Part shown: positions 12,388 to 16,618 of the stretch, piece after piece
Layout of the letters: each line of letters begins with the position of its first letter
How positions within the stretch are numbered: the first letter of the stretch is position 1
Assembly (NCBI GenBank): GCA_903892175.1
Contig: CAITHK010000230.1
Location: 1-38,629 of the forward strand
DNA from: an uncultured Burkholderiales bacterium
GTDB taxonomy: Bacteria; Pseudomonadota; Gammaproteobacteria; Burkholderiales; Burkholderiaceae_C
Direction: 5' to 3'
Length of the DNA: 38,629 bases
Notes under the pieces: generated by a model
What the model saw: the letters and a program-made list of their open reading frames with translations, nothing else
Told to the model about the DNA's origin: nothing
Database searches by the model: none
Position numbers and translations under genes: made by a program

Positions 12388-13830
12388 ATGCACATACACA
12401 TCTTAGGAATCTGCGGCACCTTCATGGGCGGTCTGGCCGCCCTGGCGCGAGAAGCTGGCCACCAAGTCACGGGCTGCGACGCCGGCGTTTACCCTCCCAT
12501 GAGCGACCAACTGCGCAGCCTGGGCATCGAGCTGATCGAGGGATTTGATGTCGACCAAATGCGTCTCAAGCCCGATGTCTATGTGATCGGCAACGTGGTG
12601 TCTCGGGCACGGCTGGCGGATGGAACGCCGAAATTTCCGCTGATGGAAGCGATCTTGGAGCAGGGTGCGTCCTACACCAGCGGTCCCCAATGGTTGGCAG
12701 AGCAGGTGTTGCACCACCCAGATCAGCCCCGCCATGTGCTGGCCGTGGCTGGCACGCACGGCAAAACCACCACCACCTCGATGCTGGCTTGGATGCTTCA
12801 AGCGGCGGGACTGGAGCCCGGCTTCTTGGTGGGGGGCGTGCCCCTGAACTTTGGCACATCGGCCCGGCTGGGCCGTCTGAGCCCTCCCAAAGATGTTGCA
12901 GCGCAGCGACGCACGCCCTTCGTGATCGAAGCCGACGAGTACGACACAGCCTTCTTTGACAAGCGCAGCAAGTTTGTGCACTACCGGCCGCGCACTGCCA
13001 TTTTGAACAACCTCGAGTTCGACCACGCCGACATCTTTGACAACCTCGCAGCCATCGAGCGCCAGTTCCATCACCTCGTGCGCACGGTCCCACCCAGCGG
13101 CCGAGTGGTGGTCAATGCCGACGAAGAAAGCTTAAGCCGCGTGCTGTCTCAAGGCTGCTGGAGCGAAGTGGCCCAATTTGGCGCGCACGCCAGCCAACTG
13201 GCATCCATGGGGTGGTCGATTCAAGGCGAACCCGACAGTTTTGGGGTACTGCGCCATGGCCAAGAAGTCGCTCGGGTGCAATGGGGCATCAGCGGCGTGC
13301 ACAACCAACTCAACGCCTTGGCGGCAATTGCTGCGGCTGAGCATTTGGGGGTGTCACCTGCGCAAGCCGCTGCCTCGCTCAGCGATTTCCAAAATGTGCG
13401 TCGGCGCATGGAAGTGCGCGGACGCATTGCGCGCGCAGGCGCAGACATCACGGTTTACGACGACTTTGCCCACCACCCCAGCGCCATTCGCACCACCGTC
13501 GATGGCTTGCGCCGCCAAGTCGGGCCCAAGGCGCGCATCTTGGCGGTCTTTGAGCCGCGCAGCAACACCATGAAGCTGGGCACCATGAAGTCCCAACTGC
13601 CTTGGAGCTTGGAAGATGCCAACCTGGCTTTTTGTCACTCCGGGGGCTTGGATTGGGATGCCGCAGCTGCGCTGCAACCTATGGGTGAGCGCGCTCATAT
13701 AGGTGCTAGCGTGGACGAAGTGATCGCCCAGGTGGTCGCCGCTGCCCAGGCTGGCGACCACGTGCTGTGCATGAGCAACGGTGGGTTTGGTGGCATCCAC
13801 GCCAAGCTCTTGGCCGCGTTGACGCAATGA
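12388..13830 (+). CDS. mpl: UDP-N-acetylmuramate:L-alanyl-gamma-D-glutamyl-meso-diaminopimelate ligase Mpl
   Basis: A 480-residue Mur-ligase family enzyme of peptidoglycan recycling. It joins tripeptide released by AmpD and LdcA directly to UDP-MurNAc. The N-terminal Rossmann motif is HILGICGTFMGGLA (4-17), the central ATPase P-loop is [13 protein letters not shown] (about 127-139), and EADEYDTAFFDKRSKF and NLEFDHADIF are typical of Mpl rather than MurC. The C-terminal domain contains YDDFAHHPSAI and FEPRSNTMK. The length is close to the E. coli enzyme. Transcription seems to start at the ATG. The gene ends in a perfect hairpin shared with the convergent DAHP synthase gene. Confidence 0.95.
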   Translation: MHIHILGICGTFMGGLAALAREAGHQVTGCDAGVYPPMSDQLRSLGIELIEGFDVDQMRLKPDVYVIGNVVSRARLADGTPKFPLMEAILEQGASYTSGPQWLAEQVLHHPDQPRHVLAVAGTHGKTTTTSMLAWMLQAAGLEPGFLVGGVPLNFGTSARLGRLSPPKDVAAQRRTPFVIEADEYDTAFFDKRSKFVHYRPRTAILNNLEFDHADIFDNLAAIERQFHHLVRTVPPSGRVVVNADEESLSRVLSQGCWSEVAQFGAHASQLASMGWSIQGEPDSFGVLRHGQEVARVQWGISGVHNQLNALAAIAAAEHLGVSPAQAAASLSDFQNVRRRMEVRGRIARAGADITVYDDFAHHPSAIRTTVDGLRRQVGPKARILAVFEPRSNTMKLGTMKSQLPWSLEDANLAFCHSGGLDWDAAAALQPMGERAHIGASVDEVIAQVVAAAQAGDHVLCMSNGGFGGIHAKLLAALTQ

Positions 13831-15002: not shown

Positions 15003-15031
15003 CAAAAAAAACCGCCGGGGTTGCGGCGGTT
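15003..15031 (-). terminator. Attenuator terminator upstream of the DAHP synthase gene
   Basis: Read on the minus strand, AACCGCCG pairs with CGGCGGTT over a 6-nt loop and runs straight into eight T residues. It ends 38 nt before the DAHP synthase ATG, so it would stop transcription before the gene. Its 5' arm (minus strand ACCGCCG, 15024-15030) is perfectly complementary to CGGCGGT inside the leader peptide gene (15079-15085). Confidence 0.92.
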
Positions 15032-15066
15032 GGTTGGGGAGTTCAGAGCGTTTGTTTCAAGTACGT

Positions 15067-15135
15067 TCAGATCTCTCGACCGCCGTTGGGGCGTGAGATA
15101 AAAAAGTAAGCAAAATAAAAACGTGTAGAACCCAT
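15067..15135 (-). CDS. Leader peptide of the DAHP synthase attenuator, Phe/Tyr-rich
   Basis: A 22-codon reading frame, ATG to TGA. It begins MGSTR, runs through FYFAYFF (residues 6-12), continues ISRPNGG (13-19) and ends REI. Six of seven consecutive codons are Phe or Tyr, as in the pheA and pheST leader peptides of enterobacteria. The last third of the coding sequence contains the antiterminator arm CGGCGGT. An extended -10 lies 7 nt before the ATG, so the peptide would be translated from a leaderless or nearly leaderless mRNA. The product has no expected function beyond sensing aminoacyl-tRNA supply. It is too short for normal gene calling. Confidence 0.9.
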   Translation of the reverse strand: MGSTRFYFAYFFISRPNGGREI

Positions 15136-15142
15136 GGCTTGA

Positions 15143-15151
15143 AATATAGCA
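15143..15151 (-). promoter_or_regulatory. Extended -10 promoter of the attenuator transcript
   Basis: On the minus strand TGCTATATT fits the extended -10 pattern TGnTATAAT with one mismatch. It lies between the tldD stop and the leader ATG, 7 nt before that ATG. No clear -35 was found, which extended -10 promoters can tolerate. Confidence 0.6.
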
Positions 15152-15157
15152 CAGGGT

Positions 15158-16618
15158 TTAGGCTGTCCCGCCCACCGTCAAGCCATCGATGCGCAAGGTA
15201 GGTTGACCCACCCCCACTGGCACGCTTTGCCCCTCTTTGCCGCAGGTGCCCACGCCGCTGTCGAGCGCCATGTCGTTGCCGATCAAGCTCACACGGGTCA
15301 AGGCATCGGGGCCATTGCCCACCAAGGTGGCGCCTTTGACCGGGTATTGGATTTTGCCGTTCTCCACCCAATACGCTTGCGAGGTGGAAAACACAAACTT
15401 GCCCGACGTGATGTCGACTTGGCCACCACCAAAGTTCACCGCGTACAAACCCTTTTTCAGACTGGCCACAATTTCTTGGGGGTCTTTGTCGCCGCCCAGC
15501 ATGTAGGTGTTGGTCATGCGCGGCATGGGCACATGGGCATAGCTCTCGCGACGGCCGTTGCCCGTGGGCTTCACACCCATCAAGCGCGCATTCATGCTGT
15601 CTTGGATGTAGCCCTTCAAAATGCCGTCTTCAATCAACACATTGCGTTGGCTGGCGTGTCCTTCGTCGTCCACATTCAGCGATCCGCGACGGTCGGGCAA
15701 GGTGCCGTCGTCCAACACCGTCACCCCTTTGGCGGCCACCCGTTGGCCGATGCGGCCGCTGAAAGCGCTCGAGCCCTTGCGGTTGAAGTCACCTTCCAGG
15801 CCGTGTCCAATCGCCTCGTGCAACAAAATGCCTGGCCATCCAGAACCCAGCACCACACTCATCTCCCCGGCAGGGGCAGGCCGCGCTTCCAAGTTCACCA
15901 AGGCAGCTTTGACGGCTTCGTCCACATAGCTCTGAGCCAACGCATCGTCAAAATGGTCCAAACCAAAACGACCTCCACCGCCGCCAGAGCCCATTTCACG
16001 GCGGCCGTTTTGTTCCGCAATCACCGTCACACTCAGCCGCACCAAGGGGCGCACATCGGCGGCCAAAGTGCCGTCAGCGCGCACCACCATCACCACGTCG
16101 TACTCGCTGGCCAAACCGGCCATCACTTGTGACACACGCGGGTCTTTGGCGCGTGCCATCTTTTCCACCCGTCCCAACAGCGCCACCTTTTGGGTGCTGT
16201 CGAGTGAGGCAATCGGGTCGAGGTCGCGGTAGAGCGAACGGCTGGAGGCCACGCGCCGTGAAGGCACTTTGACCCGCCCGCCCTTGGATGCCGCCGCAAT
16301 GGTGCGCACCGTGCGGGCAGCATCCAACAACGACGCTTCAGAAATGTCATCGGAATAAGCAAATGCTGTTTTTTCACCGCTCACCGCGCGAACGCCCACG
16401 CCCTGGTCAATGCTGAAAGAGCCGGTTTTGACAATGCCTTCTTCCAAACTCCAGCCTTCTGAGCGGGTGTACTGAAAATACAAATCGGCGTCATCGACTT
16501 TGTGAGCCCGAATCTCGGCCAAGGTGCGGGTGAGGTGAGACTCGTCCAAACCAAAGGGCTCAAGCAACAAGCTTTGGGCAATGGCCAAACGTTCAAGGGT
16601 GGGTTCGCGTGAAATCAT
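15158..16618 (-). CDS. tldD: Metalloprotease TldD
   Basis: A 486-residue TldD. With its partner TldE/PmbA (not in the window) it forms a zinc protease that degrades unfolded peptides and, in other species, matures microcins and aids CcdA antitoxin turnover. The HExxxH motif is HEAIGHGLEGD (H267, E268, H272), followed by the typical FNRKGSSAFSGRIGQRVA. The C-terminal SGKFVFSTSQAYWVENGKI and DSGVGTCGKEGQSVPVGVGQP motifs are intact, including the Cys. The ATG at 16618 was preferred to the upstream in-frame candidate at 16645 because a TACAAT -10 lies 6 nt before it. It lies downstream of rodA, same strand, but appears to have its own promoter. Confidence 0.95.
   Translation of the reverse strand: MISREPTLERLAIAQSLLLEPFGLDESHLTRTLAEIRAHKVDDADLYFQYTRSEGWSLEEGIVKTGSFSIDQGVGVRAVSGEKTAFAYSDDISEASLLDAARTVRTIAAASKGGRVKVPSRRVASSRSLYRDLDPIASLDSTQKVALLGRVEKMARAKDPRVSQVMAGLASEYDVVMVVRADGTLAADVRPLVRLSVTVIAEQNGRREMGSGGGGGRFGLDHFDDALAQSYVDEAVKAALVNLEARPAPAGEMSVVLGSGWPGILLHEAIGHGLEGDFNRKGSSAFSGRIGQRVAAKGVTVLDDGTLPDRRGSLNVDDEGHASQRNVLIEDGILKGYIQDSMNARLMGVKPTGNGRRESYAHVPMPRMTNTYMLGGDKDPQEIVASLKKGLYAVNFGGGQVDITSGKFVFSTSQAYWVENGKIQYPVKGATLVGNGPDALTRVSLIGNDMALDSGVGTCGKEGQSVPVGVGQPTLRIDGLTVGGTA

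Follow-up and report, generated by a model that had tools for sequence, protein, structure and literature searches.

A putative ribosome-mediated attenuator with aromatic control codons upstream of the DAHP synthase gene aroG in Burkholderiales

Attenuation of a DAHP synthase gene has been reported for the aroR-aroF system of Corynebacterium glutamicum, which responds to Phe and not to Tyr (according to the accessible text of PMC11802643 and PMC4046766). Attenuation of Escherichia coli aroF was once hypothesised (work cited in the available part of PMC8632094), and predicted RNA motifs located before aroH and aroF of Shewanella have been linked to earlier proposals for E. coli (PMC2659441, in the portion accessible). 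Here we describe a putative attenuator that precedes the DAHP synthase gene aroG of an uncultured Burkholderiales bacterium, found on a 38,629-nucleotide stretch of DNA (contig CAITHK010000230.1) that was analysed as a whole and is referred to as the window. To our knowledge, no control of the first shikimate step has been described in Burkholderiales. We say so because a Trp repressor scoring over cut-off was absent from 98 of 100 genomes of the order, that of the window included (two genomes had a match and two more a weak one), and because the accessible text of PMC5343134 describes TyrR and TrpR as missing from bacteria other than gammaproteobacteria. The genome of the window also had no TyrR-type HTH protein over cut-off; a single weak match fell short of it. 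A conserved attenuator would fill this gap in the control of the first step. No description of a Burkholderiales aroG attenuator was found in the open literature, including the available parts of PMC2965389 and PMC4603805; an earlier prediction in subscription papers or supplements is possible.

On the minus strand of the window, tldD (frame end at 15158) is followed by a 192-nt gap that holds the candidate attenuator and then by aroG. The aroG product matched Pfam DAHP_synth_1 (E 3.7e-94) and TIGR00034 (E 7.5e-161), and was the only match to this class-I protein in its own genome (E 0.001; genome 96.6% complete). A Mur ligase family protein, which we take to be Mpl-like, is encoded at 12388-13830 of the window on the plus strand, convergent with aroG. 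The coordinates that the original prediction had given for the -10 element, leader ORF, antiterminator arm and terminator proved correct when the minus strand was read again. The features are as follows.

TGn 15151-15149 and hexamer 15148-15143, minus strand: extended -10, TGC-TATATT, read from the sequence
At or adjoining 15135, minus strand: predicted transcription start, placed from the position of the -10
15135-15067, minus strand: leader peptide ORF of 22 codons, MGSTRFYFAYFFISRPNGGREI and a stop codon, predicted to be leaderless (sequence, and an aromatic-rich ORF in relatives)
15120-15100, minus strand: control codons F-Y-F-A-Y-F-F, with F or Y at six of seven codons
15090..15098, minus strand: segment 1 (possible), TCTC at 15098-15095 and CGCC at 15093-15090, pairs with segment 2
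15074..15085, minus strand: segment 2, antiterminator arm CGGCGGT at 15085-15079 and GAGA at 15077-15074, identified by complementarity
15031-15024, minus strand: segment 3, the terminator 5' arm AACCGCCG, which is also the partner of segment 2
15023-15018, minus strand: terminator loop CAACCC
15017-15010, minus strand: segment 4, the terminator 3' arm CGGCGGTT, identified from the hairpin
15011-15004, minus strand: T-run of the intrinsic terminator, eight T
14965-13859, minus strand: aroG, class-I DAHP synthase and presumed regulated gene (Pfam and TIGRFAM matches)

Three hallmarks of an attenuator were found together in the window: a leader ORF rich in codons for pathway end products, an intrinsic terminator between this ORF and the structural gene, and an arm within the ORF that is complementary to the terminator 5' arm. 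The complementarity had been claimed to be perfect, and ACCGCCG of the terminator 5' arm is indeed the exact complement of CGGCGGT in segment 2. The predicted energies were -14.3 kcal/mol for the 2:3 duplex and -12.7 kcal/mol for the terminator hairpin. In the mechanism that we infer, which spans leaderless initiation, the stalling response, premature termination, amino acid specificity and a role for segment 1, transcription would start at or adjoining the leader ATG and a ribosome would load on the leaderless 5' end. When Phe-tRNA or Tyr-tRNA is short, the ribosome would stall in FYFAYFF and leave segment 2 free; segment 2 would pair with segment 3 before segment 4 is made, no terminator would form and aroG would be transcribed. 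When charging is good, the ribosome would reach the stop codon and cover segment 2, and the 3:4 hairpin would form and stop transcription after about 130 nt. If the leader were not translated, the RNA of the window is predicted to fold in a way that leaves segment 3 free for segment 4. In most relatives outside the genus of the window, the leader might sense all three end products of the pathway, because it also carries Trp.

Conservation of the leader ORF and alternative arms in relatives was the refutation test of the original prediction that could be run, and its outcome was favourable. Of the 80 named loci most similar in AroG, taken from a longer list of matches, 67 had a leader ORF and terminator ahead of aroG by scripted detection. 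Among the 13 loci without detection, L020 had too little upstream sequence and L047 had a leader with an interrupted T-run; no leader was found before aroG in L029, L031, L033 and L068 (the first three titled Polynucleobacter), and no leader with terminator was seen in L039 and L042 (Cupriavidus) or in L049, L050, L054, L056 and L062. The detection rule, at least four F, Y or W within nine residues plus a terminator, picked up 4 of the 123 sequences when these were reverse-complemented and 1 of 615 shuffled stretches; when tightened to at least five aromatic residues, it fired on none of either set compared to 116 of the 123 forward sequences. Within the genus of the window, aroG was present in 17 of 19 genomes (own included) and the leader in all 16 loci with readable upstream sequence. 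A second aroG copy in one of the genomes examined (G017), 53% identical, had no leader upstream. The distance from leader ATG to terminator was 114-139 nt in 68 loci. The working set used below comprised 123 leaders, found among 151 loci that had an AroG match. Fractions computed from it carry a bias, because 13 loci were chosen by a match to the covariance model described below and near relatives were kept (117 distinct peptides).

Seven loci that lack the attenuator (L029, L031, L033, L068 and L120-L122, three of them titled Polynucleobacter) have a TTAAAAT-like -10 a few nucleotides before the aroG ATG, and because of this position aroG itself may sit on a leaderless mRNA in these loci. Two further loci depart from the common layout. 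At L063:1814-1960 (titled Candidatus Burkholderia humilis), the leader is off the usual frame after FYFYF and reads through the terminator, such that the sensor looks decayed. At L157, a terminator with the same arms is kept before aroG and no aromatic-rich ORF was found ahead of it.

A covariance model built on Comamonadaceae-type sequences and used with strict filters matched 85 of 300 genomes of the order (88 matches, a few weak ones false), and an AroG match at E 1e-60 was found in 230 of the same 300. The true number of attenuator-bearing genomes is probably higher than 85, because of the Comamonadaceae basis of the model and the strictness of the filters. All 66 matches at E 1e-5 or better were at aroG loci, 55 as judged by coordinates (same strand, upstream of aroG) and 11 by fetched DNA that carried aroG and a leader, and they covered 14 of 51 family codes. 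When all 88 matches were considered, 76 were at aroG loci: 62 by coordinates and 14 of 20 fetched stretches (L138-L150 and L157), for which the model match and the leader were not aligned base by base. The other six fetched stretches (L151-L156) had a model match without aroG, and six of the 88 matches, with E 0.0024-0.0088, lay outside the aroG-locus check. A second weak match in the genome of the window (G000:C215, E 0.004) was rejected; it has no adjoining aroG and resembles an ordinary terminator region. When 184 genomes of the class were searched, three matches were found outside the order (L161, L162 and L163). L161 and L162, from a family of another order, have the same layout before aroG and leaders with F, Y and W. 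L163 was set aside, as it precedes an acetolactate synthase gene and not aroG.

The amino acids encoded by the leaders were compared upstream of the GGCGG core of segment 2, where Phe was found in 68 of 68 leaders, Tyr in 66 and Trp in 50, in varying order. All three aromatic residues occurred somewhere in the peptide in 76 of the 123 leaders. The leader of the window has Phe and Tyr and no Trp; in its genus, any Trp was found in only 3 of 16 leaders, and one of these three (L093) has it on the downstream side of the aromatic run. Outside this genus, most relatives have Trp within the run. Along the AroG tree, Trp switches between present and absent at least 20 times, gains and losses being counted together. 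Thus, Phe and Tyr as originally proposed control amino acids fit the window and 13 of the 16 leaders of the genus, but this pair is too narrow for the wider family because Trp codons are usually present too. We infer that the family is best read as a putative sensor of up to three end products, of which the window would be a Phe/Tyr variant. Attenuation could also be real with a single amino acid, Phe, being of importance in vivo and the Tyr and Trp codons mere passengers. The Phe codons common to all 68 loci fit this alternative, as does the lack of effect of Tyr availability on the C. glutamicum aroF operon (in the accessible text of PMC11802643); set against it, Tyr has been kept in nearly all of these loci and Trp in most, and we consider a response to Phe alone unlikely.

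The codons themselves were skewed. Phe was encoded by TTT 195 times and by TTC 99 times in the leaders, compared to 77 and 359 times in the aroG genes of the same loci, and the TTT fraction was higher in the leader than in aroG in 65 of 67 loci. A shift to TAT against TAC relative to aroG, weaker than the TTT shift, was also seen in the leaders of the 67 named loci. The TTT skew might favour slow decoding or keep the RNA free of structure.

The antiterminator arm was examined by the position and reading frame of its GGCGG core. The core was found within the leader ORF in 113 of 123 loci compared to 28 of 123 equally long upstream control stretches. It occupied the three reading frames of the ORF in 35, 31 and 2 of 68 loci (51, 57 and 3 of 111 in the larger set), and a rapidly built maximum-likelihood phylogeny of 121 AroG proteins required at least 14 changes of its frame. 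Because the core persists through these changes of frame, the arm is, as judged from the sequences, conserved as RNA, and the C-terminal part of the peptide is not what is kept. Support for the 2:3 stem rests mainly on this behaviour of the core.

Base changes in the stems were tallied at the position next to the core. In segments 2:3:4 this base was C:G:C in 35, T:A:T in 15, A:T:A in 2 and G:C:G in 1 of the 68 loci; of the remainder, five had a G-U pair in 2:3, eight were mismatched in 2:3, and two kept 2:3 and lost 3:4. In the larger set, it paired in 2:3 in 89 and in 3:4 in 105 of 111 loci. On the AroG tree it changed at least 29 times in segment 2, 8 times in segment 3 and 9 times in segment 4, and segments 3 and 4 changed together. 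An independent-pairs analysis of the 2:3 coupling found just 4 pairs on starred branches, which is too few. Among Comamonadaceae-type loci the stems hardly varied, no significant covariation was detected and RNAalifold gave only the terminator. The compensatory changes anticipated in both stems were found in part: all four Watson-Crick types occur at one position of segments 2, 3 and 4, but the near-invariance of the core leaves little room for change, and none is significant within Comamonadaceae. A possible 1:2 stem, absent from the original prediction, would pair 15098-15090 with 15084-15074 (TCTC/GAGA and CGCC/GGCG), with a predicted -9.4 kcal/mol in the window (z -1.8 against shuffles). 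In 53 of 68 loci, three or more of the five core bases can pair with upstream sequence, with a median z for 1:2 of only -0.76. These calculations lend weak support to segment 1 and the 1:2 stem as part of the switch.

Folding was modelled on RNA truncated ahead of segment 4, in which the footprint of the ribosome was masked, and E. coli trpL was included as a control. By this truncated-fold approach, a ribosome placed on the aromatic codons of the window gave an antiterminator probability of 0.86, compared to 0.00 for a ribosome at the stop codon and 0.03 for RNA free of ribosomes; the corresponding values for trpL were 0.62 (Trp codons), 0.07 (stop codon) and 0.29 (no ribosome). The model of the window is flat, as a ribosome anywhere on codons 2-14 gives 0.86, and it therefore shows the effect of ribosome position, not the choice of codons. 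In L082, the nearest relative, the final three aromatic codons gave lower probabilities of 0.51, 0.24 and 0.15. The medians over 123 loci were 0.70 for Phe, 0.69 for Tyr, 0.70 for Trp, 0.53 for the stop codon and 0.45 for no ribosome, and the best aromatic stall exceeded the stop codon by more than 0.2 in only 59 of the 123. When segment 4 was present, the terminator was favoured at equilibrium at nearly every ribosome position; thus, antitermination would have to be kinetic. Kinetic switching is usual for attenuators. With no ribosome, a 1:2-like stem formed inside a larger stem in the window and L082 and left segment 3 free, and 2:3 formed instead in L001. The larger stem joins the leader 5' end to the stretch just before the terminator (15133-15120 with about 15048-15034, minus strand, in the window); L082 has a longer version and L001 has no such stem. 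It is possibly a further element of the switch. Overall, the folding models are only partly supportive of regulation.

Since the folding model alone does not single out the aromatic codons, an alternative to the sensing of tRNA charging has to be weighed, in which the nascent peptide arrests its ribosome in response to a free amino acid or some other signal. TnaC is an arrest leader of this kind that senses Trp. In Comamonadaceae-type loci the FYFxYF(W)F run is well conserved at the peptide level, which would fit arrest. An arrest peptide should nevertheless keep fixed residues, and the aromatic residues differ among loci in both sequence and count (FHFAYF in the genus; FFFGYF, FYAFFWF and SYFFAYF in relatives), as does the presence of Trp with its repeated changes on the tree; we judge arrest to be quite improbable compared to sensing of tRNA charging by a translating ribosome.

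The spacing of the promoter was likewise compared among relatives. In the window, the hexamer of the extended -10 ends 7 nt before the leader ATG. In 75 of the 123 loci, a TGnTANNNT sequence had its end 6-9 nt upstream of the leader ATG (exactly 7 nt in 43); elsewhere within 70 nt of this ATG it was found only 7 times. A Shine-Dalgarno-like 4-mer preceded 2 of 123 leader ATGs compared to 66 of 123 candidate aroG starts, by a generous count. This fixed spacing and the scarcity of Shine-Dalgarno motifs support the leaderless mRNA that had been proposed for the leader, and the leader start of the window is probably leaderless. The leaderless form is not universal, because in most Burkholderia-type and Oxalobacteraceae loci the place of the extended -10 is taken by TATAAA or TATAGT at about 25-39 nt upstream.

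The likelihood that the elements arose by chance was estimated by shuffling the 192-nt gap 20,000 times with its dinucleotide composition preserved, and with the antiterminator arm, promoter spacing and conservation not scored. An ORF with six of seven F/Y codons was found in 65 shuffles, a perfect 7-bp hairpin with T6 in 36, and both together in 1. As the tldD frame ends on this strand 126 nt ahead of the hairpin, one could suppose that the hairpin merely terminates the tldD transcript at its 3' end and that the F/Y-rich ORF simply reflects a T-rich sequence context. This is very improbable given the single joint hit, the single shuffled stretch on which the detection rule fired, the recurrence across families of the aromatic ORF, its in-ORF complementary arm and the -10 spacing, and the differing 50-nt upstream flanks of the loci. 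Taken together, the anatomy, conservation, RNA-level constraint on the arm and promoter spacing uphold the reading of the locus as ribosome-mediated attenuation, and we consider it highly likely that a transcription attenuator of this type controls aroG. The putative attenuator is a directly testable control element that very probably turns aroG on only at Phe/Tyr shortage. The family would offer a multi-amino-acid sensor of tRNA charging with natural variants (with or without Trp, leaderless or not), and it helps to annotate a class of short ORFs that are easily overlooked.

Among described systems, E. coli pheL-pheA (RF01859, NCBIfam NF038149) shares a Phe-rich leader of weak similarity but controls pheA and not a DAHP synthase gene. 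The leader of the window scored 16.4 bits against NCBIfam PheL, below the cut-off of 24, and those of three relatives had no match. No Rfam family reached its gathering score in the window; in an Rfam E-value search of 11 of the 80 named loci, the best match was of L065 to Phe_leader RF01859 (39.9 bits, gathering 55), with weak matches elsewhere in L009 and L023. The C. glutamicum aroR system shares with the window a leader with Phe and Tyr codons and ribosome-mediated attenuation of a DAHP synthase gene; it differs in belonging to an Actinobacterium and in its Phe-Tyr-Phe run, with no Trp mentioned in the accessible text, and is likened here by description and not by sequence (PMC11802643, PMC4046766). 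Acholeplasma uORFC-13-1 shares a predicted uORF with Phe codon(s) and a terminator before the DAHP synthase gene aroF, but its 24 representatives come solely from Acholeplasma and environmental sequences, and it is described as having a ribosome binding site and one or more Phe residues (PMC8632094, as far as its available text goes). The Shewanella motifs before aroH and aroF are also predicted cis-regulatory RNAs of proteobacterial DAHP synthase genes; they precede other paralogues in another order, no leader peptide is mentioned in the available part of the source, and the likeness is by description only (PMC2659441). The leaderless start has a known counterpart in trpL-trpE(G) of Sinorhizobium meliloti, an attenuator whose RNA begins at the ATG of the leader ORF; it differs by sensing Trp only, by residing in an alphaproteobacterium and by controlling trpE(G), and its RNA and peptide are reported to have functions in trans (in the portion of PMC7298713 accessible). 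We tentatively put forward, as a joint reading that is plausible and somewhat short of probable, that in much of Burkholderiales one leader, often leaderless, monitors the charging of the three aromatic tRNAs and provides the chief transcriptional control over shikimate entry in place of TyrR and TrpR, and that its RNA of about 130 nt and hydrophobic peptide may act in trans, as is reported for rnTrpL and peTrpL of S. meliloti. Compared to these systems, the mechanism is classical, and what appears to be new is the element in this order, its putative reading of up to three amino acids and its probable leaderless design.
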